A DNA stretch of 10,095 bases, from assembly GCA_030613765.1 (NCBI GenBank), contig JAUWLI010000083.1:1-10095 (forward strand). The letters are read 5' to 3'. The notes below the pieces were generated by a model that searched no databases, had not been told where the DNA came from, and worked only from the letters and a program-made list of their open reading frames with translations. The position numbers and the translations under genes were made by a program. The DNA comes from Phycisphaerae bacterium. GTDB taxonomy: Bacteria; Planctomycetota; Phycisphaerae; Sedimentisphaerales; SG8-4. Below, one piece after another: positions 446 to 10,095 of this stretch; position 1 is the first letter of the stretch, and each line of letters starts with the position of its first letter.

Positions 446-474
446 TTGACATAGCTGATAAATCCTGTTAAAAT
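446..474 (+). promoter_or_regulatory. Sigma-70-type promoter with extended -10 for the amidohydrolase operon
   Basis: A perfect -35 hexamer TTGACA lies at 446-451. After a 17-base spacer comes the -10 hexamer TAAAAT at 469-474, preceded by TG at 466-467 (extended -10, TGnTAAAAT). Hexamers, spacing and TG dinucleotide all match the housekeeping consensus closely. Transcription would begin near 481, leaving a leader of only some 12-27 bases depending on the start codon. This is the only strong promoter I see for the downstream genes, so the whole array is probably one transcript. Confidence 0.75.
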
Positions 475-494
475 GGGGGTTCTTGTCAATTTAT

Positions 495-500
495 GGAGAG
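495..500 (+). promoter_or_regulatory. Shine-Dalgarno GGAGAG that favours the GTG start at 508
   Basis: GGAGAG at 495-500 is seven bases before GTG 508 and four before GTG 505. The alternative ATG at 493 would have only about 12 transcribed bases in front of it and no Shine-Dalgarno, because the G-run at 475-479 is upstream of the predicted transcription start. The GTG start also gives a cleaner signal-peptide n-region. Confidence 0.5.
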
Positions 501-507
501 TCTGGTG

Positions 508-1812
508 GTGATAGGCCATAAGAATATTATTCTCATTTCATCTTTGCTTCTGCTATTCATCTTCACAAGCGCCTTCGGCAGTCAGGACATAGCAATTCGG
601 GCCGGCCATATCTTTACCATCAGTGATAATCCCATCGAAAACGGTATAGTCCTGATAAAGAATGGGAAGATTGAAGCACTCGGCCGGAATGTGGTATTAC
701 CTGCGGATGTTCGGCTTATTGATGCAAATGACAAGTTCGTCATGCCCGGTCTTATAGATGCCCAATCCCGGCTGTTCGTGATGGACAGCGAGTTAAATGA
801 AAGCCGGACCATCGCGCCGGAGCTTAATATTCTCGATGCGATTGATCCCTTCATTAAGGAATACAGGGAAGTCTTAGCGCAAGGAGTCACAGCCGTATGT
901 GTCGCTCCGGGCAGTCGCGGCTTAATCGGCGGCAGAAGCGCGGTGTTAAAACTTAACGGCTCTAAAAATGTTGACAGGATGGTTTTGAAGGCGGATGCCA
1001 CTCTCAAAGCCGCCGTTGGCATGTCATCAGGTAATGCATCCTCATCGCTGGCCCGTTTGGAACATTACTCATCGATTCGTGAAGCCTTGATTGCGACAAA
1101 AGTTTACATGCAGAGAAAGGAAAAAGCCGATCGAGAGCTGGCTGAATACAACAGGAAAAAGGCTGAATACGAAAAGAAAGAACGCGGAAAAGAGACAGAA
1201 AAAAAAGAGAAGCCAAAAAGACCGGCCAAATTCAAATCCAGTCCTGCCAATGATGTTCTTGCTCAGGTCCTTCGCAAAGAAATTCCACTCCAGGTCGAGG
1301 CTCATCGGGTCGTTGATATCTTGAACGCTTTGCGGTTGGCTGATGAGTTTGGCTTTACTCTGATTTTAGATAAATGTACCGAGGGCTACTTAATAGCTGA
1401 CGAGATTGCCCGGCGAAAGGTCTCTGTTATTGTCGGCCCTGTTTCCACGTCTTTCGTCGACATGCCAAGATTAGAGTATCGCAACCATGATATGAGCAAT
1501 GCCGCAATCTTATCGAAAAGAGGTGTTAAAGCAGCGCTGGGTGTATCGGGAAGAGACGGCGCAAGTTCGAAGTTCATAACACTGGCAGCAGCGATGGCCG
1601 CAGCCAACGGCATGGACAAAGGCGCTGCACTGCGGGCAATCACACTGACTCCTGCTGAGATGCTTGGCGTGGCTGACCGAATCGGCAGCTTGCAAGTCGG
1701 CAAAGATGCCGACCTGGTTATACTCAACGGGCATCCTCTGGACATACGCACCCGAGTCGAAATGGTTATGATAGAGGGCAGAGTCGTTTTTGAGAGGAAA
1801 TCACAGCAGTGA
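508..1812 (+). CDS. Exported amidohydrolase-fold protein lacking the metal ligands (domain 1)
   Basis: About 434 residues from GTG 508 (439 if ATG 493 is used). A Sec signal peptide (hydrophobic core about residues 7-20, cleavage near AFG|S) precedes a complete imidazolonepropionase-like amidohydrolase fold: N-terminal beta-sandwich strands, the VMPGLIDA lead-in, the TIM barrel and the closing RIGSLQVGKDADLVIL segment. The HxH that should follow VMPGLIDA is replaced by QSR (Q86, R88). The strand-5 His is E264, the strand-6 His is K289, and the strand-8 Asp falls at S347. All five protein metal ligands therefore appear lost while the frame stays intact, so hydrolysis is unlikely and a structural or binding role is inferred. 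Residues about 197-241 form a Lys/Glu-rich, probably helical insertion. It is the first gene after the promoter, and its TGA overlaps the next start by four bases. The alignment of ligand positions was made by eye. Confidence 0.85.
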   Translation: MIGHKNIILISSLLLLFIFTSAFGSQDIAIRAGHIFTISDNPIENGIVLIKNGKIEALGRNVVLPADVRLIDANDKFVMPGLIDAQSRLFVMDSELNESRTIAPELNILDAIDPFIKEYREVLAQGVTAVCVAPGSRGLIGGRSAVLKLNGSKNVDRMVLKADATLKAAVGMSSGNASSSLARLEHYSSIREALIATKVYMQRKEKADRELAEYNRKKAEYEKKERGKETEKKEKPKRPAKFKSSPANDVLAQVLRKEIPLQVEAHRVVDILNALRLADEFGFTLILDKCTEGYLIADEIARRKVSVIVGPVSTSFVDMPRLEYRNHDMSNAAILSKRGVKAALGVSGRDGASSKFITLAAAMAAANGMDKGAALRAITLTPAEMLGVADRIGSLQVGKDADLVILNGHPLDIRTRVEMVMIEGRVVFERKSQQ

Positions 1813-2981
1813 AAAAAACCATAATATTGAGCGTACTGATTTTGCTAAGCATGCCGTGTTACATGGTTAAGGCTGCGGATGCGCCTCAAAATCTTGCCAT
1901 TCGCGCAGGCAGGATTTGGACGGTAACGGATGGTATCATCACGGACGGCGTCATCATTATTAAAAATGGCAAAATTCAGGCTGTGAGAAAAAAGCCGGAC
2001 GTTCCGGCAGGAATGAAATTGCTGGACTTCTCAGACAAGGATGTTATGCCGGGCCTGATTGATGCACATTGCCATATCGGCCTGTCACTTGATATCTACA
2101 GCGAAATCGATGAAACAGTTTTAGCTGTCACTCCGGATATGCAAATTATCGATGCCTTCAATCCACTGGCAGATGATGTCAAAAAGGCCCTTCGCTCAGG
2201 CGTGACAACTGTCTTGCTGGCGCCGGGCAATAGAAATCCGATCGCCGGGCAAACGGCTGTTGTGAAATTGTATGGCAAAAAAACAAAAGACTGGATATTG
2301 AAACGCAGTGCTGGTGTTAAGTTTTCATTGAGGAACGAAGCCCTGATGTCTGACCGCCGACCGACATCCCGAGCCGGCCTGATGGCGCTGATTAGAGAAG
2401 AGTTAAATAATGCGAAGACACACAAGGAAGATAAACCCGACTTACGCATTGAAGTTCTCAAAAGCGTAGTAGATGCGAACTTCCCGGTATATATTTGTGC
2501 ATATACCGTTGATGAAATCGCTGCTGCTGTGACACTCGTCGATGAATATGACCTAAATGCGGTACTCATTGGGGCCGAGCAGGGAGATGAAGCTGCAAAG
2601 TTAATTGCCGGGCAGAATATTCCTGTCATATATTCTCCGCTTCTTCTTTTCAGCAGGGACAAGGACCTCAAACGGGTAGTCAAGATGGCTGACAGTGGAA
2701 TCAAGGTTGCATTTTCTTCAACCGCTCCCAGAACGCCTTTGAGTGATTTGAGGACATCAGCCATCACCGCCGTTAAATATGGGCTCGATACGGAAGCGGC
2801 CCTAAAAAGTTTGACTATCAATGCTGCCCAGATTCTCGGCGTTTCTAAACGTGTAGGCAGCATCCGGAAAGGCAAAGATGCTGATCTTGTTATCTTGAAT
2901 GGTGACCCGCTGCAGCCGACATCCACAGTTGAAATGGTCATTATTAATGGCAATATCGTGTATCAAAGGCAGAAAATATGA
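1809..2981 (+). CDS. Exported amidohydrolase-fold protein keeping only HxH (domain 2)
   Basis: 390 residues, starting at a GTG that overlaps the previous stop (GTGA), with AGAGGA at 1793-1798 as ribosome binding site. The signal peptide has a core at about 4-16 and likely cleavage at VKA|ADA (22/23). The fold is complete and the shortest of the set, because the charged helical insertion is reduced to a few residues (about 203-210). After VMPGLIDA the HxH motif is preserved (H87, H89). By alignment, however, the strand-5 His is C230, the strand-6 His is G255 and the strand-8 Asp is T305 (in AFSSTAP). The closing VGSIRKGKDADLVILNGDP segment is canonical. Retaining HxH without the other ligands makes a normal mono- or binuclear centre improbable, though weak or altered metal binding (with C230, for example) cannot be excluded. 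The TGA overlaps the next ATG by four bases, which suggests coupled translation. Confidence 0.85.
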   Translation: MKKTIILSVLILLSMPCYMVKAADAPQNLAIRAGRIWTVTDGIITDGVIIIKNGKIQAVRKKPDVPAGMKLLDFSDKDVMPGLIDAHCHIGLSLDIYSEIDETVLAVTPDMQIIDAFNPLADDVKKALRSGVTTVLLAPGNRNPIAGQTAVVKLYGKKTKDWILKRSAGVKFSLRNEALMSDRRPTSRAGLMALIREELNNAKTHKEDKPDLRIEVLKSVVDANFPVYICAYTVDEIAAAVTLVDEYDLNAVLIGAEQGDEAAKLIAGQNIPVIYSPLLLFSRDKDLKRVVKMADSGIKVAFSSTAPRTPLSDLRTSAITAVKYGLDTEAALKSLTINAAQILGVSKRVGSIRKGKDADLVILNGDPLQPTSTVEMVIINGNIVYQRQKI

Positions 2982-4192
2982 AAGCTTGCATCATATCACT
3001 CAGTTTTTTGTTGCTTATGCCTGCATCTGCAAAGGATGAGCAGTCAGAGATCACGGCTATTAAAGCAGGCAAAATCCTTACAATGTCAGGTTCTCCTATA
3101 ACGGATGGTATCATACTGATAAAAGACGGGAAAATCACAGATATTGGTACGGGGATTGAGATCCCTGAAAATGCCTCTATCATTGATGCCGGCAAAAATA
3201 TCGTCATGCCGGGCCTTGTTGATGCAAGTGCTGTGCAGCCGGTTCGTGGTGACCTGAACGAGCAGTCCGACGAGATAACGCCGACGATTCGGATTTCAAC
3301 TGCACTCGATCCGCAGAGCAAGGTACTAAAGCGTGTGGTCCAGACAGGAATCACAACCTTATATATATCTCCCGGCTGGCGAAATGTCATCGCCGGACTG
3401 GGCGCAGTTATCAAGCCAACAGGCAAAACGCCAAAGGAAATGATAATCAAGGAAGACGCAGCATTGACAATCGTCATGAGTTTGGATTCTACATACGGCA
3501 ATCAAATTCCACGAAGTCAACCGCCTCGAAACTTCTACTTTAGACGACCGACAACACGCATGGCTATTATCTGGATGCTGCGTAAGAGTTTCTTTGATGC
3601 ACAGAAGTATGCGGCATCGAAGGAAAAAGATGACCCGGATATGCAAATTCTGGCCTCTGTACTCGATGATAAAATTCCCGTCCGCCTCAATGTCAGACGC
3701 GCAATAAACATCCGTACAGCGCTGAAACTTGCCGATGAATATGATTTCCAGCTTATCCTTGACGAATGCACAGAAGGCTACAAAGTCGCAGAAGAAATAG
3801 CTCAAAAGCAGGTCCCTGTCGTTTTGGGACCTTTCTATTACTACCCCGGCAGTTCAGGCCAATATCGTGAGGGCCGGGAAGTAAACTGGAACAATGCGGG
3901 TATCCTGACAAAGGCGGGTGTAAAAGTCGCACTGACATCGGGCGCCCAGCTTCAATCAATCGATCTTTTAACAGCGGCGGCTTTTGCCGTCAGGCACGGT
4001 ATGCCGAAAGATGAAGCTCTGAAAGCGATTACAACGACGCCTGCTGAAATACTCGGCGTTGCTGACAAAGTCGGAACGCTTGAAAAAGACAAGCACGCCG
4101 ACATCTTAATTCTCAGCGGGGATCCACTGAAAGTAACAACCCGTATTGAAAAAGTTATTTTAAATGGCAAGACTGTTTATAAAGCAGAGTGA
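2978..4192 (+). CDS. Exported amidohydrolase-fold protein lacking the metal ligands (domain 3)
   Basis: 404 residues from an ATG overlapping the upstream stop (ATGA), with AAAGG at 2965-2969 as ribosome binding site. A short signal peptide ends at about ASA|KDE (18/19). The family landmarks are all visible: VMPGLVDA (about 77-84), the PGW-loop (132-146), TTRM with LRKSF (192-205), TEGYKVAEEIA (265-275) and VADKVGTLEKDKHADILIL. The catalytic set is gone: HxH is S84-A-V86, the strand-5 His is N238, the strand-6 His is E263 and the strand-8 Asp is G322. The barrel is otherwise well kept, including the alpha-helix signatures between strands, so loss is confined to the active site. This points to a retained pseudoenzyme. 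A Tyr-rich stretch (FYYYPG, about 286-291) follows strand 7, where active enzymes place substrate loops. No neighbour reveals the substrate. Confidence 0.85.
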   Translation: MKACIISLSFLLLMPASAKDEQSEITAIKAGKILTMSGSPITDGIILIKDGKITDIGTGIEIPENASIIDAGKNIVMPGLVDASAVQPVRGDLNEQSDEITPTIRISTALDPQSKVLKRVVQTGITTLYISPGWRNVIAGLGAVIKPTGKTPKEMIIKEDAALTIVMSLDSTYGNQIPRSQPPRNFYFRRPTTRMAIIWMLRKSFFDAQKYAASKEKDDPDMQILASVLDDKIPVRLNVRRAINIRTALKLADEYDFQLILDECTEGYKVAEEIAQKQVPVVLGPFYYYPGSSGQYREGREVNWNNAGILTKAGVKVALTSGAQLQSIDLLTAAAFAVRHGMPKDEALKAITTTPAEILGVADKVGTLEKDKHADILILSGDPLKVTTRIEKVILNGKTVYKAE

Positions 4193-4203
4193 GGAAAGAG
4201 GCT

Positions 4204-5481
4204 ATGAAATCCAAGTTTTATATAGCTTTAATTGCAATGTTCCTGATGGCATGTGTCATGAATGCGTCGGTACGTGCCGCCCCGGTTCGCAAAAAGCTCG
4301 CCATTAAAGCAGGCAGCATTATCACCATATCCGGAGCGGATATCAAAAACGGTACCATCTTAATCGAAGATGGGATCATAAAGGCTGTTGGAAAGAAAGT
4401 GGAGATACCCTGGGATGCTTTTGTCATTGAAGCAAAGGACCGGGTTGTGATGCCAGGTTTTGTACTGGCTCACACATCAAGCGGCTTAGACAGGGCAAAT
4501 GAAAACGTCCCTGAAGTACCTTTCCTCTCGACGTTCGACTCCATCGACCCTGTAAGCTTTTATTTTGAGGACTCCCTTCGGGACGGCGTGGTTGCAATGC
4601 TTGTACTTCCGGGCAATAATACCCTACTTGGCGGAACAGGAACGGTTGTAAAACCTCACGGCCGAACCGTGGAGGCAATGCTTATCAAACGATATAAAGG
4701 CTTGAAAATCTCCCTGCGACCAGCCCGTAACACCAGCCGAATGGGACATATGCAGCGATTCAGACGATATATGTCCGACCTGAAAGATTATCTCGAAGAA
4801 TACGAGCAGCGAAAGGCCGATGCCAAAGAAGAAAAAAAGCCTTTCGATGAAGAAATCGACATTCGCAAACAGCCGATGGTCGACCTTTTGAACAAAAAGC
4901 TCACCGCCTTTATCTATTGTGACAGGGCTGCTGACGTACCAAAAGCAATTGAGGTCCATGAAACTCATAAATTCAACACCGTTCTGGTCTTGAGCCCCAA
5001 TTGTTATAAAGCCGCCGGCCTTATCGCTCAGAAAAAGCTTCCCGTAATTTTGCCCTCACAGCTTACCATCTGGGAAACCAACGAAGAAACAAACGAGGAA
5101 GAGATGAAAGTCATTCCGATGATTTTCAATAAAGCCGGTGTAAAGTTCGCCTTCCAGACCGATACCTCCCAGTATGGCAGTCGGTACCTGTGGTATCAGG
5201 CTGCAACCGCAGTCAGGCATGGAATGAAGCGAACCGAAGCTCTGAAATCCATAACGCTTTATCCTGCACAGTTCATCGGCGTCGACGACCGACTCGGGAG
5301 TATTCAGGCGGGTAAAGAAGCGACTTTCATCTTCCTGACGTCTGACCCGTTGGACGCCCAGGCCTGGGTGGACAAGGTAATGATTGCCGGCGAAATCGTC
5401 TATGAAAAGGAAAAAGACAAGCGCTTAAAAAAGCTGTTGGAAAAACCGGAGGAAATCCAAAAGCCTAAAGATACGGATTAA
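4204..5481 (+). CDS. Exported degenerate amidohydrolase-fold protein with charged C-tail (domain 4)
   Basis: 425 residues from ATG 4204, chosen because GAGGAAA at 4191-4197 is well spaced before it; an in-frame GTG at 4189 overlaps the previous stop and is the alternative (430 residues). The signal peptide core is about 5-19 with likely cleavage at VRA|AP (25/26). The first His of HxH is kept (H90) but the second is S92. The strand-5 position is Y238 and strand 6 is L263, while the strand-8 Asp is retained (D320, in FQTDTS). The closing segment is also drifted: GKEATFIFL replaces GKDADLVIL. A charged insertion lies at about 195-225, and there is a Lys/Glu-rich tail beyond the last strand (about 400-425) that the other members lack. 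It is the most diverged single-domain member and probably not catalytic. After it comes the operon's largest gap (53 bases to the next ATG). Confidence 0.85.
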   Translation: MKSKFYIALIAMFLMACVMNASVRAAPVRKKLAIKAGSIITISGADIKNGTILIEDGIIKAVGKKVEIPWDAFVIEAKDRVVMPGFVLAHTSSGLDRANENVPEVPFLSTFDSIDPVSFYFEDSLRDGVVAMLVLPGNNTLLGGTGTVVKPHGRTVEAMLIKRYKGLKISLRPARNTSRMGHMQRFRRYMSDLKDYLEEYEQRKADAKEEKKPFDEEIDIRKQPMVDLLNKKLTAFIYCDRAADVPKAIEVHETHKFNTVLVLSPNCYKAAGLIAQKKLPVILPSQLTIWETNEETNEEEMKVIPMIFNKAGVKFAFQTDTSQYGSRYLWYQAATAVRHGMKRTEALKSITLYPAQFIGVDDRLGSIQAGKEATFIFLTSDPLDAQAWVDKVMIAGEIVYEKEKDKRLKKLLEKPEEIQKPKDTD

Positions 5482-5534
5482 GATTAAATTATATAAGGAC
5501 CGAATCGCATAATAGTCTGGGACAAGATTTGGCT

Positions 5535-8042
5535 ATGAATAGACGCTATAAACATTTTGATAATCGACGGGCAATTTATGTTGCTGCGATTTCAATCCTC
5601 ATCAGCACGTTTATAGTGCCGACCGTTTCAGCGCAGGAAAACTCCGTCGTGGCTATCAGAGCAGGCACAATCCTGCCGGTAACATCGGCACCGATTCAGA
5701 ATGGCATTGTGCTTATTCGCGATGGTAAAATCGAAGCCGTTGGCAAAAATTTGAAAATACCCGATGGCGCCGAAGTAATTGACGCCACCGATAAGGTGGT
5801 CATACCCGGATTGATAGATGCCTTTACGACACTCGCAGAGAGAAGCAGGGACGATGAAGAGTCCGTGACACCGGATATTCGGGCAAAAGATGCCTTTGAT
5901 TTCTATGGCAAATATCGGCGGTTGCTGGCCGGCGGCGTAACAACTGTTTATATTTCACCCGGCCAAAGGCGGTTAATCAGCGGCTTGGGTGCAGTGGTCA
6001 AGCTTGCCGGTGGTTCTATTGATGAACGCTGTCTCAAGGATACATCGGCGCTTCGCATCACGCTTGGGGAGCTTCCCAAGAACCCGCCTTCCATTTTCAA
6101 GCCGCCCCTCCCACCGGACCCGTGTCATCCACTCCTGCCGGTGGAAAATCAACTGCCCACGACGCGAATGGCTGAAATGGCTGTATTACGAAAAGTCTTT
6201 ACCGATGCAAAATGGGCGATGAAACAGAAAGAAACCGAAACAGATTCTAAAATGCAGGCCCTGCTGCCTGTTTTGAAGCGTAAACTGCCTGTCCGAGTAA
6301 ACTGTCATACTGCCCAGGATATTCGCAACGCCATTCGCTTTGCCGAGACATTCAGGTTAAAACTTATTATAGAAGGCGCCACGGAAGCGTATGAAGTCAT
6401 TGATGAGATTAAATCGAGCAAATCACCGGTCGTCGTCACCGGAATCTTTGAACCCGGTCGACAGCAATTGAAAGACTACACGACCGATATCGCCCTTGGG
6501 CGTGTCAATCCCGCGAATCCCGCCCTGTTGGCAAAAGCGGGTGTCAAGTTCGCAATTACCTCTCCCACCGACGAGACCATCCCCGACCTGCAATTCATCG
6601 CAGGCTATGCTGTTAGTCAGGGTTTGTCACCTCAAAATGCGCTTAAAGCAGTTACAATTACACCTGCTGAAATCCTTGGTCTTTCGGACCGGATTGGAAG
6701 CATCGAAAAGGGCAAAGATGCCGACCTTGTAATTCTAACTGCCGAGCCTTTTGAAATTCACTCGATTATTGACAAGACGCTCATCAATGGCAAGGTTGTA
6801 TATACCCGCCCAGAAGTAGAACCAAAGAAAGAGGAAACAGAACAAGCGTCCATCACAGCTATTCGAGCGGGTAAGATTCTGACGGCAAGTCACGGACGAA
6901 TCAACGATGGACTCATTCTCATAGAAGGCAACAAAATCACTTACGTCGGCGGGCCAAAAGAGATTCCAAAGAAGGCAACGGTCATTGACGCAACAAAAAG
7001 CGTTGTCATTCCCGGCATGATCGATATCCACTCACATCTCGGCCTGCACGCCGAAAGTGAACCGGTCAAAATGAATCCTTCTGCACCGACCAGCGGGCCT
7101 GATTCCGGCAATATGCGTCTCGTCAGCATCGCCAACGCCGTCAAGCCGAATGACGAAGGCTTCCGCGAAGTTTTGCGCTCCGGCGTAACATCAGTGCTGC
7201 TCGCCCCCCGAACACGCGGATTTATAAGTGGAAATGCCGCGCTCATCAAGCTCACCGGTGACAGCACAAAGGAGATGATTGTTAAAGAATACGCGGCTGT
7301 TAAATTCTCTATGCTTGGAGAGCGGGCAAGAATGGCGAGAATCTGGGATGCACGCGACCAGCTCAAAAGAGCAAAAGAATATGCCGAGAGGTGGGATGAT
7401 TACGAACGAAAGTATAAGGAATATGAACGACGTCGGCAATACGAACAGGATAAAGACCCTGATAAAAGGCAGGAAATCAAAGAGCCCCCCCGCCCGGGCC
7501 GCGATACCAGCCTCGAACTATTACGTGGACTCTTTAAGCGTCAAATGCCCGCGCTCGTGCACGCCAATCGCGCTGACGAAATCCGTACGACATTGAAAGT
7601 TTTTAAAGACGAGTACAACCTTAATGTCATAATTCTTGGCGGCAGCGATGGCTTCCGTGTCACTGATGAGCTGAGAAAGTATAACATTGGAGTAGCCATA
7701 GGCCCCAATATCATCCGCTACGAAAAAGGAAAGCCGATAAACAACGCGGACCTTTTGACTCGCAATAAGCTATGCGTTGCGTTCCACACCAGCGCAACTT
7801 CGGGAACACAGTATTTGCCGATGAACGCCGCTTATGCCGTGAGGTATGGAATGGATGAAGAAGAAGCCTTTCGAGCGATAACTATTTACCCGGCCAAACT
7901 GCTCCACGTCGATGACAGGATTGGAAGTATAGAACAGGGCAAGGACGCGGATTTGGTGATTCTATCCGGCGGGCCGTTTGATTTTCGAAGCCGGGTGGAA
8001 AAAGTCTTCGTAAACGGAAAAATTGTTTATGAGAATAAATAA
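5535..8042 (+). CDS. Two-domain exported amidohydrolase-fold fusion (domains 5 and 6)
   Basis: About 835 residues, roughly twice a normal member. ATG 5535 is used; TTG 5529 is two codons earlier and better placed behind GGGA (5519-5522), so the start is uncertain by two residues. A signal peptide (core about 13-30, cleavage near VSA|Q, 33/34) leads into domain A (about 37-424), a charged linker (about 425-438) and domain B (about 439-835), which restarts with SITAIRAGKILT but has no second signal peptide. In domain A, HxH is F97-T-T99, strand 5 is N256, strand 6 is G281 and strand 8 is P344: no ligand remains. Domain A also has a Pro-rich loop (about 179-203). Domain B keeps HSH (H499, H501) and the strand-5 His (H676), but strand 6 is G702 and strand 8 is S753. 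Domain B carries a long Glu/Lys/Arg/Tyr helical insertion (about 611-650). Both domains keep the closing GSIExGKDADLVIL segment. The continuous frame through the linker argues for a true fusion rather than an assembly artefact. Confidence 0.85.
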   Translation: MNRRYKHFDNRRAIYVAAISILISTFIVPTVSAQENSVVAIRAGTILPVTSAPIQNGIVLIRDGKIEAVGKNLKIPDGAEVIDATDKVVIPGLIDAFTTLAERSRDDEESVTPDIRAKDAFDFYGKYRRLLAGGVTTVYISPGQRRLISGLGAVVKLAGGSIDERCLKDTSALRITLGELPKNPPSIFKPPLPPDPCHPLLPVENQLPTTRMAEMAVLRKVFTDAKWAMKQKETETDSKMQALLPVLKRKLPVRVNCHTAQDIRNAIRFAETFRLKLIIEGATEAYEVIDEIKSSKSPVVVTGIFEPGRQQLKDYTTDIALGRVNPANPALLAKAGVKFAITSPTDETIPDLQFIAGYAVSQGLSPQNALKAVTITPAEILGLSDRIGSIEKGKDADLVILTAEPFEIHSIIDKTLINGKVVYTRPEVEPKKEETEQASITAIRAGKILTASHGRINDGLILIEGNKITYVGGPKEIPKKATVIDATKSVVIPGMIDIHSHLGLHAESEPVKMNPSAPTSGPDSGNMRLVSIANAVKPNDEGFREVLRSGVTSVLLAPRTRGFISGNAALIKLTGDSTKEMIVKEYAAVKFSMLGERARMARIWDARDQLKRAKEYAERWDDYERKYKEYERRRQYEQDKDPDKRQEIKEPPRPGRDTSLELLRGLFKRQMPALVHANRADEIRTTLKVFKDEYNLNVIILGGSDGFRVTDELRKYNIGVAIGPNIIRYEKGKPINNADLLTRNKLCVAFHTSATSGTQYLPMNAAYAVRYGMDEEEAFRAITIYPAKLLHVDDRIGSIEQGKDADLVILSGGPFDFRSRVEKVFVNGKIVYENK

Positions 8043-9327
8043 CAGAAAAAGTCCCCTGGTACAAAAGCACGATGGCTGTTTACCTGTCCAAAGAGGTAAA
8101 GGGCGAATAATTCGTCTAATCGCCGTTCTGGTTATACTATGCACCAGCCGGTTGTGCATCGCCGAAGCCGCCGAACCGACAAAATATGCCATCAAAGCGG
8201 GAAAGATACTGACTGTCACCAAAGGGACAATCGATCACGGCATCATACTCATAGAAGATGGAGTGATTAAAACCGTTGGAAAAGCAGCCGATGTAGACAT
8301 TCCGAAAGAATACAAGGTAATTGACGCTTCGAACAAATGGGTCATGCCCGGAATGGTCGAAATTCACTCACACCTTGCCGGCGAGGGCGGCCTAAATGAT
8401 ATGGTTGTTCCGACGAACCCCGGACTTCGAATTGCAGATGTCATCGACCCGGAAGCCCGGGCAATTCAACAAGCTGTGGCAAGCGGGGTGACGACCGTCC
8501 ACACAATCCCGGGCAGCGGAACAAATTTAGCGGGTTTTGGTGTCCTGTACAAACTACACGGCAAAACCATAGATGAAATGCTCGTCCGCAAGCTTGGCTC
8601 GATGAAAATCGCACAAGCTTATAATCCTGAAAGAGGAGGTGGCGACCTCGGGCTCACGAGAATGGGAATGTCCTGGATACTAAGAGACATCCTTAATAAA
8701 GGCAAGGCTTATACACAGGCTTGGCAGGCTTATGAGAAAGGCGAGATTAAAGACGAACCCGGAGAAAGATTAGAGTTCGAAAACATGAGGCAAGTCCTTG
8801 AAGGGTCTATCCCGACATTGGTTCATACGGCATCGGCACGGGACGTGATGGCGACGGCACGAATCTTCCACGATGAATACCAGCTCAGAACCATCGTTTC
8901 TCACGCGACTTTTCACGGCTACAAGGTCGCAAAGGAAATGGCCCAGCGCGATGTTCACGTCAATGTTGGCCCGAGGCAGTATGATTACTCCTTCTCAATG
9001 GATAATAAGTTTTATGGCCTGGCGGCGGAATATAAAGCCGCCGGCGTAAAAAATCTCTCGATCAATACAGACGCACCCGTTCTGCCGCAGGAGGATTTGT
9101 TCTTTCAGGGCTCGATGGCCATACACTTCGGTCTGGACGAAAAAACGGCCCTGGAAAGTGTCACCATCAACTCCGCCCGGGCCATTGGAATTGACGACCG
9201 TGTCGGAAGCATCGAAGCCGGGAAAGATGCCGACCTGATTATTAAGGCCGGGAGCCTCTTTGATGTAACTATCCCGGTGGACATGGTCTTTATAAACGGC
9301 AAAATCGCATATAGCAAGGTACAATGA
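8029..9327 (+). CDS. Exported imidazolonepropionase-like amidohydrolase, full metal site (domain 7)
   Basis: 432 residues from ATG 8029, overlapping the fusion gene by 14 bases; TTG 8023 is an alternative. It is the only complete member with every expected ligand: HSH (H113, H115) after VMPGMVEI, the strand-5 His in LVHTAS (H266), the strand-6 His in IVSHATFHGY (H292) and the strand-8 Asp in INTDAP (D348). It also has H158 in TTVHTIPGSGTN and K193 in SMKIAQ, both possible active-site residues. It is most likely a metal-dependent hydrolase acting on a C-N bond outside the cytoplasm. Related exported amidohydrolases include dipeptidases and amidases, but the substrate cannot be read from sequence. 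The signal peptide is odd: about 29 polar residues precede the hydrophobic core (about 28-39), with likely cleavage at AEA|AEP (47/48). The moderate insertion (about 228-250) has the YTQAWQAYEKGE pattern shared with the next gene. Its TGA overlaps the next ATG. Confidence 0.88.
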   Translation: MRINNRKSPLVQKHDGCLPVQRGKGRIIRLIAVLVILCTSRLCIAEAAEPTKYAIKAGKILTVTKGTIDHGIILIEDGVIKTVGKAADVDIPKEYKVIDASNKWVMPGMVEIHSHLAGEGGLNDMVVPTNPGLRIADVIDPEARAIQQAVASGVTTVHTIPGSGTNLAGFGVLYKLHGKTIDEMLVRKLGSMKIAQAYNPERGGGDLGLTRMGMSWILRDILNKGKAYTQAWQAYEKGEIKDEPGERLEFENMRQVLEGSIPTLVHTASARDVMATARIFHDEYQLRTIVSHATFHGYKVAKEMAQRDVHVNVGPRQYDYSFSMDNKFYGLAAEYKAAGVKNLSINTDAPVLPQEDLFFQGSMAIHFGLDEKTALESVTINSARAIGIDDRVGSIEAGKDADLIIKAGSLFDVTIPVDMVFINGKIAYSKVQ

Positions 9328-10095
9328 AGAACGGAATCCTAATATATTCAGTTATCATCCTCATAATCATCGGCTCAGTATATGCCAAAGACAAGCCGAC
9401 ACCTCCAAAGTATGCCATCAAGGCCGGCAAAATCTTAACGATGGCACCTGCTGATAAATCCTCCGCAGATACGGTTGTTATAAACCACGGAATCATTCTT
9501 CTAAGCAATGGAAAAATCGAGGCCCTGGGGGCAAACATCCCGATACCGAAAGGATACAAGGTAATTGATGCATCGGACAGATGGGTAACACCCGGTATCG
9601 TCGAGGCCCATACTCATATCGGGACCGAAGGCGGGTTCAACGATATGGTGACACCTATAAATCCAGAGTTACAGATTGCAGAATGTGTGAACCCGGAGGA
9701 TATTACCATTGAAAAAGCCGTGACCGGCGGGGTAACAACAATCCACACAATGCCGGGAAGCGGTACGAACCTGGCAGGTTTCACCGTCATCATCAAACTG
9801 GATAGCTCCGATCCCGAAAATATGATTCTTCGCGAGCTCGGCGCAATGAAAATAGCGCAGGCCTTCAATCCTGAACGACGCGGCGGCGATTTGGGCAATA
9901 CGCGCATGGGCATGTCCTGGTCTTTGAGGCAGATTTTAAAACAGGCGAAACAATATACAGAAGCGTGGCAGGCTTATGAACAAGGCGAGCGTAAGGAAAA
10001 ACCTGAGTTAAGACCCGAACTGGAAAAGATGCGAAAGGTCTTCAACGGCGAAATTCCAACCATTAACCACACCTATTCACCCTGGGGCGTCATGC
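9324..10095 (+). CDS. Exported imidazolonepropionase-like amidohydrolase, N-terminal part (domain 8; runs off window)
   Basis: The first 257 codons are present, starting at an ATG that overlaps the previous stop (ATGA) with AAGG at 9316-9319 upstream; the 3' end lies beyond the window. The signal peptide is short, with cleavage near VYA|KDK (21/22). It is clearly the sister of the preceding gene: over the segment from PGSGTNLAGF to NPER, 27 of 42 positions are identical by direct count. All ligands within reach are present: HTH (H96, H98) and the strand-5 His in INHTYS (H249), plus the shared H141 (TTIHTMPGSGTN) and K176 (AMKIAQ). The strand-6 His and strand-8 Asp would lie outside the window. 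A short insertion (about residues 42-56, Ala/Asp/Ser-rich) splits the first beta strands compared with its sister. Likely an active periplasmic metal hydrolase and a recent duplicate, with the array possibly continuing downstream. Confidence 0.85.
   Translation, partial: MKNGILIYSVIILIIIGSVYAKDKPTPPKYAIKAGKILTMAPADKSSADTVVINHGIILLSNGKIEALGANIPIPKGYKVIDASDRWVTPGIVEAHTHIGTEGGFNDMVTPINPELQIAECVNPEDITIEKAVTGGVTTIHTMPGSGTNLAGFTVIIKLDSSDPENMILRELGAMKIAQAFNPERRGGDLGNTRMGMSWSLRQILKQAKQYTEAWQAYEQGERKEKPELRPELEKMRKVFNGEIPTINHTYSPWGVM

Follow-up and report, generated by a model that had tools for sequence, protein, structure and literature searches.

A planctomycete gene array that would encode a hetero-oligomeric amidohydrolase with one catalytic and eight non-catalytic subunit positions

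The DNA studied here (the window) is a stretch of 10,095 nucleotides from a Phycisphaerae bacterium (contig JAUWLI010000083.1, assembly GCA_030613765.1), and it contains a series of seven amidohydrolase-type open reading frames (ORFs) on the plus strand, from position 493 to the window end, encoding the domains D1, D2, D3, D4, a fused D5-D6, D7 and a cut D8. This series is the left part of an array of ten positions, D1-D2-D3-D4-[D5+D6]-D7(1-5 copies)-D9-D10, whose order is the same across Planctomycetota; D9 and D10 are two further inactive positions found in relatives, past the point where the window ends. From sequence we propose, with a probability of roughly 0.6, that the cluster codes for a single exported hydrolase, a hetero-oligomer of one catalytic subunit type (D7) and eight non-catalytic paralogous positions.

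The ligand columns (HxH / strand 5 / strand 6 / strand 8) were read from an alignment to the printed sequence of the Thermotoga maritima amidohydrolase 3OOQ. Catalytic members have HxH, a strand-5 His, a strand-6 His and a strand-8 Asp; none of the six domains D1 to D6 has this set complete, and D7 does. D1 (493..1812), which begins with a signal-like segment and has orthologues in other clusters, shows the amidohydrolase fold without the metal ligands (QSR/E/K/S), its strand-8 column being G or S depending on the alignment, a one-residue shift. D2 (1809..2981), joined to D1 by a GTGA stop-start overlap, keeps HxH and the strand-4 Lys and has lost the ligands of strands 5, 6 and 8 (HCH/C/G/T). 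It is followed by the ligand-free D3 (2978..4192; SAV/N/E/G), which overlaps D2 at an ATGA, and by D4 (4189..5481; HTS/Y/L/D), which overlaps D3 at a GTGA. The next protein consists of an N-terminal half without ligands, D5 (5535..6818; FTT/N/G/P), and a C-terminal half, D6 (6819..8042; HSH/H/G/S), where HxH, the Lys and the strand-5 His are kept and the strand-6 His and strand-8 Asp are gone. D7 (8023..9327), the catalytic subunit type, has the full HSH/K/H/H/D. After an ATGA overlap comes D8 (9324..10095), a second catalytic-type copy that is truncated by the window end, with H, H, K and the strand-5 H present, and that is complete in the relatives L012, L013 and L015.

The initial annotation had listed D1 to D6 as lacking complete metal ligands and D7 as intact (HSH/H/H/D), and the 3OOQ alignment reproduces both statements, apart from the one-residue uncertainty in the final D1 column. 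The strand-4 Lys column, absent from that table, is kept in D1, D2, D4, D6, D7 and D8. Since D2 keeps HxH and the Lys, and D6 the strand-5 His as well, D6 (and D2) of the window lineage may bind metal. Six of the seven ORFs, all the complete ones, pass the Pfam cut-offs for Amidohydro_1 (PF01979) and Amidohydro_3 (PF07969), and the D8 ORF, cut by the window end, has no Pfam match. The closest named proteins come from Planctomycetota, Sedimentisphaerales and Phycisphaerae metagenome genomes, with D2 at most 95% identical.

Relatives were collected from four contigs, from family and phylum searches and from fetched stretches, and a profile built from the window domains located the array in them. 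The main sample comprises 54 stretches, or 53 clusters, since L016 and L017 together make up one; these were picked for relatives of D2, D4 or D7, and the counts cover known clusters rather than random amidohydrolases. Every position is present, in one order, in 47 of the 54 stretches. The window, L003, L004, L015 and L050 are incomplete because they run out at a contig, fetch or window end, as does L017; in the cluster formed by L017 and the remaining incomplete stretch, L016, D1 is a remnant of 49 residues. D5 and D6 share one ORF in 53 of 53 cases, the only covalent link found throughout.

Each inactive position is single as a full domain, and only the active type has full-length duplicates: counting cut copies, D7 occurs once in 34 stretches, twice in 12, three times in 2, four times in 4, five times in 1 and not at all in 1 (L016). 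Where the label of an inactive position is doubled, the two are complementary pieces, on two ORFs for D1 (L023, L024) and on one ORF for D6 (L046, L049, L053, L054), or else short pieces with an unsure label (57 residues in L036; 127 residues at a contig end in L050). Four or five tandem copies of D7, with all inactive positions single, are found in L038, L040, L041, L062 and L063, as if active subunits for different substrates had one common scaffold. One cluster, in genome G435, belongs to Engelhardtia mirabilis, its D4 being 100% identical to that of the species.

Co-occurrence was measured in an even sample of 294 genomes from the phylum, of which the D7 profile matches 92 and the D4 profile 74 at 1e-60. 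At stricter cut-offs, set after inspecting the tables, D7 is found in 73, D4 in 70 and both in 67 (Fisher p 5e-55). When the six genomes with apparently only D7 were opened, a whole D4 was present in G314, G338 and G357 and a contig-edge piece of D4 in G290 and G451; in G415 the contig starts at D7 and is uninformative, and in none of the six was a D7 without partners demonstrated. The three genomes with apparently only D4 have contigs of 3.3-11.9 kb that stop before D7. Such conserved genetic linkage of active and inactive paralogues is expected of an enzyme-pseudoenzyme hetero-oligomer. Close relatives of the window D2 are not universal, because an orthologue at 1e-80 occurs in 2 of 118 genomes in the order of G001 and in 7 of 89 in its family. 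Around the clusters no flanking gene is widely shared: the largest set, a glycosyl transferase family 3 protein in L040, extends to 12 of 54 stretches, on flanks that are short, often about 1 kb upstream; FG-GAP, AhpC/TSA, LAB_N, SnoaL-like and other neighbours vary by lineage.

In the 54 stretches, D7 is complete in 83 of 83 countable copies, that is, those with a residue at every ligand column, and the other domains are complete in 0 of 402 (D1 0/47, D2 0/51, D3 0/52, D4 0/52, D5 0/53, D6 0/49, D9 0/49, D10 0/49). A gap at a ligand column excluded 22 of 507 rows, two cut D7 copies among them. The nearest misses are two D2 domains with four of the five ligands, HLKHHD in L048 and HHKDHD in L061. 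Nine further stretches, opened since the profile search had given D7 without D4 or the reverse, show 7 of 7 complete D7 copies and, tallied from the table, 0 of 42 complete others. With 0 of 402 against 83 of 83, the loss of ligands is not chance. The position names come from profiles that contain the ligands, which leaves the D7 label not fully independent of them; gene order offers a check that does not depend on them. A baseline for ligand loss was sought in unrelated amidohydrolases of G110 and G435, which have several gaps at ligand columns and align to the profile too poorly to be scored.

An alignment slip was considered as the source of the ligand loss and is spoken against by a search for HxH, H, H and D within 2, 4 and 6 residues on either side, which left the counts unchanged, at 0 of 402 non-D7 domains complete. 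The initial annotation had named two findings that would tell against a pseudoenzyme series, namely orthologues with restored ligands and other residues rebuilding the site. The former do not occur among the 402 and 42 countable non-D7 domains and, at the level of sequence, the 6-residue search gives no sign of the latter. Its claim of an inactive series in one cluster stands as to the loss and falls short as to scale, which is eight non-catalytic positions throughout the phylum rather than six.

Column conservation separates the site from the fold. The five ligand columns have a mean conservation percentile of 98.2 in D7, and of 65.0 in D1, 37.6 in D2, 37.6 in D3, 55.0 in D4, 42.8 in D5, 36.6 in D6, 21.0 in D9 and 24.0 in D10; the strand-8 column lies at percentile 0-61 in each inactive position. 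Because the ligand columns are ordinary in conservation while 13 fold positions rank among the most conserved tenth in six or more of the eight inactive types, the site drifts in the inactive domains with the fold kept, apart from the first His and Lys of D4 and the strand-5 and strand-6 columns of D1. Pairwise ratios of nonsynonymous to synonymous change (dN/dS, NG86) among the window, L012, L013 and L015 are 0.076-0.160 for the inactive domains and 0.069-0.113 for D7/D8, approximate values given that synonymous change reaches 1.7 in the widest pairs. Purifying selection with the ligands absent, which had been put forward as support for the series, is therefore borne out in these four near clusters, and it is a feature expected of the inactive chain in an enzyme-pseudoenzyme hetero-oligomer.

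Structural comparison places the proteins in one subfamily. 3OOQ is the nearest solved structure, with phmmer values of 1.4e-48 for D7 and 9.5e-56 for D2. AlphaFold2 models reached a mean predicted local distance difference test score (pLDDT) of 93.3 and a predicted template modelling score (pTM) of 0.87 for D4, and 85.0 and 0.69 for D5-D6. In Foldseek the top match of both is again 3OOQ, with template modelling (TM) scores of 0.80/0.85 for the D4 model and, by target length, 0.86 for one domain of the D5-D6 model; among the 50 matches listed, no other chain exceeds 0.58 (D4) or 0.63 (D5-D6) by target. By closest sequence (checked for D7 and D2) and closest predicted fold (checked for D4 and D5-D6), the proteins belong to the 3OOQ-like subfamily. 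Like D7, 3OOQ has the full ligand set; it differs from the window in that six domains there lack the complete site and are arranged as subunit-like positions. An identity with the pseudo-dihydroorotase PyrC' was rejected, as 3OOQ is nearer than dihydroorotase to D7 and D2, the dihydroorotase models are far below their cut-offs and there is no aspartate transcarbamoylase (ATCase) gene among the window ORFs.

The positions are also recognisable in trees. A tree of 112 rows unites near and distant clusters by position for D4 and D7 (support 100), for D5, D6, D9 and D10 (99) and more weakly for D1 (82), and places the near and far D3 rows within one 26-row group that also includes D5. A tree of 127 rows concurs for D3, D4, D7 and D10, and for D5 and D6 save one stray row each (L051); D1, D2 and D9 are less coherent there, several of their rows being long.

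Smaller relatives of the array, from the same subfamily, occur as well. G110 has a fused inactive-active protein followed by an inactive one, and G435 an inactive protein followed by an active-inactive fusion, besides an active-inactive pair. Plasmid records, the only collection covered beyond Planctomycetota and not a systematic search, contain single complete genes in Acetoanaerobium, Nonomuraea, Cytobacillus and Monoglobus, and active-inactive pairs in Qipengyuania and Novosphingobium. The Qipengyuania citrea pair (L116:1087-6087) lies between genes for a peptide MFS transporter and an FKBP-type isomerase. On a plasmid of Hymenobacter volaticus (L111:3935-8353), a Bacteroidota relative of the triple is split among several short ORFs that overlap and carry annotations as hypothetical proteins and amidohydrolases; these are perhaps decayed or mis-sequenced.

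The pairs and triples of G110, G435, Qipengyuania and Novosphingobium resemble the array in that an active copy stands beside inactive copies, sometimes fused to them. They differ in size, with two or three domains against nine or more, and in inactive members that lie apart from D1-D10 (support 89, not starred). All 26 complete-ligand rows, comprising D7 and the active members of the smaller relatives (without Hymenobacter), form one clade in the 127-row tree (98). Once the ligand columns and those next to them were masked and ten long rows removed, the unconstrained tree no longer kept the complete-ligand rows together, and their joint grouping is not rejected (p-AU 0.918). A path from single gene to pair to array is plausible on these trees.

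A promoter-like site, TTGACA-17-TAAAAT with an 11/12 match and TG before the second hexamer, lies directly upstream of D1 (446..474, plus strand); it is a consensus match only, and it scores best of the 22 promoter-like sites in the window, where 12.9 are expected from shuffles. Terminator-like sites are at chance level in the window (11 vs 11.8), and no RNA family reaches the gathering threshold. The window has four ATGA/GTGA overlap junctions. Across the whole set of stretches, 227 of 389 junctions permit the stop and the next start to overlap by 4 bases or 1 base. When the stop was shifted as a control, the mean was 28 in the same frame and 6 in other frames; the best same-frame shift gives 185, because a shift of 3 bases interconverts the two kinds of overlap. 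In a simple hydropathy test, signal-like hydrophobic segments are found in 76-95% of the proteins per position, from 41/54 for D1 to 81/85 for D7, and because of these N-terminal segments the proteins are predicted to be exported.

The proposed hydrolase would belong to the 3OOQ-like branch of the amidohydrolase superfamily. The D7 type (1-5 copies, D8 being the second copy here) would bear the metal centre and perform hydrolysis, while D1-D6, D9 and D10, with D5 and D6 on one chain, would be fixed, non-interchangeable subunits, assembling with the catalytic one, stabilising it or gating it. We infer both the physical assembly of the chains and the structural or regulatory role of the inactive ones; the gene order, the ligand loss across the phylum, the single copy of each inactive position and the fusion are what they build on, along with co-occurrence and purifying selection. 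As to substrate, there is a weak lead towards a peptide-like amide, because of the peptide transporter gene beside the Qipengyuania pair and a resemblance to Xaa-Pro dipeptidase and L-Arg carboxypeptidase; the similarity to the Xaa-Pro dipeptidase model is weak and far below the cut-off.

Several observations weigh against the proposed hetero-oligomer. Near and far D2 rows separate in the 112-row tree. In other phyla, related genes that stand alone have complete sites, with no paralogue within 3 kb on either side, and for this reason the active type does not inherently need partners. The signal-like segments were scored by a hydropathy window only, with D1 at 41/54. D1 itself is broken in G110 and split over two ORFs in both L023 and L024; it may be dispensable, or the assemblies faulty. 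In G110 about 770 kb separate its two pieces, with a C-terminal remnant lying at the cluster (L016:12946-13212; G110:C1 554068-554205) and an N-terminal part elsewhere (L097:3107-4180; G110:C1 1325214-1326107), through either a rearrangement or an assembly fault. Finally, the first His (percentile 92) and the Lys (93) of D4 are conserved, as are the strand-5 (87) and strand-6 (95) columns of D1, and because of this a pocket function in D4 and D1 is possible. D4 has lost the metal set and, in most clusters, retains its first His and strand-4 Lys, and its overall conservation is about that of the active subunit.

The conserved D4 and D1 columns raise the question of whether some of the domains called inactive, above all D4, D1 and the D2 and D6 of the window lineage, are enzymes with an altered site or chemistry. 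Of 53 D4 rows, 45 have the first His and 49 the Lys; D6 of the near lineage retains HxH, Lys and the strand-5 His, D2 retains HxH and Lys, and the D2 domains of L048 and L061 are one ligand short. The ligands of D6 and D2 are not maintained across the phylum, however, and the low strand-8 percentiles extend to all inactive positions; we consider such altered enzymes improbable. The same His and Lys in the D4 pocket, together with the signal-like segments that most chains have of their own, would also suit separate exported proteins that bind a substrate, a product or an envelope component beside the catalytic protein and not in complex with it. This is unlikely, if less so than altered chemistry: the former ligand columns of D2, D3, D5, D6, D9 and D10 are conserved like ordinary columns or less, unlike a binding pocket, and the D5-D6 fusion and the strict gene order suit subunits better than separate binding proteins.

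Tandem paralogues are common, and the broken or split D1 genes are what redundant, drifting copies without a joint function might look like. Ordinary tandem duplication of this kind has very little to recommend it, though, in view of the purifying selection in every domain compared, the same order and positional orthology in distant clusters, and the lack of any full-length duplicate of a position other than the active one. A hetero-oligomer is the simplest account of the array, and it has parallels in MetCaCb and in the ATCase-pseudo-dihydroorotase complex.

Enzyme-pseudoenzyme partnerships that can be named are, to our knowledge, mostly pairs. The CRMPs have lost their activity and form hetero-oligomers, and we know of no operon of one active and many inactive members among them; they are described as cytosolic neuronal proteins and amidohydrolase-fold relatives (PMC4051505). 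The metformin hydrolase MetCaCb is described as a metal-bearing subunit with a metal-free paralogue as its needed binding partner, the genes being paired and neither protein working alone (PMC11271267). As in the array, an active protein and an inactive paralogue are encoded together there; unlike the array, with its amidohydrolase superfamily members and eight inactive positions, MetCaCb belongs to the ureohydrolase (arginase) superfamily and has one inactive partner. For Pseudomonas aeruginosa, a complex of ATCase and pseudo-dihydroorotase is reported in which the inactive dihydroorotase-like chain is required for activity (PMC7053772). In that complex the active partner is a different enzyme, ATCase, for which the window has no gene, and there is one inactive chain type.

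Among the titles and abstract openings listed by searches of open-licence PMC papers, none describes such a planctomycete cluster. As far as these go, enzyme-pseudoenzyme complexes are known, and the number of inactive positions and their conservation throughout a phylum are undescribed. Going further, the array might be a bacterial counterpart of the eukaryotic multi-paralogue machines: an exported particle of nine or more same-fold domains, one of them catalytic, that grew stepwise from a single enzyme via active-inactive pairs and triples to an array whose eight inactive positions are fixed and whose active one can be exchanged and amplified. We offer this as a tentative view, at somewhat less than even odds.

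Around a single live copy, many planctomycetes retain eight different dead ones, and the sequence databases still contain possible intermediates of such a build-up (single, pair, triple and array). Many planctomycete proteins annotated as amidohydrolases are accordingly unlikely to be hydrolases. Why complexes gather non-catalytic paralogues becomes a question that can be tested biochemically in named species, such as Engelhardtia mirabilis.

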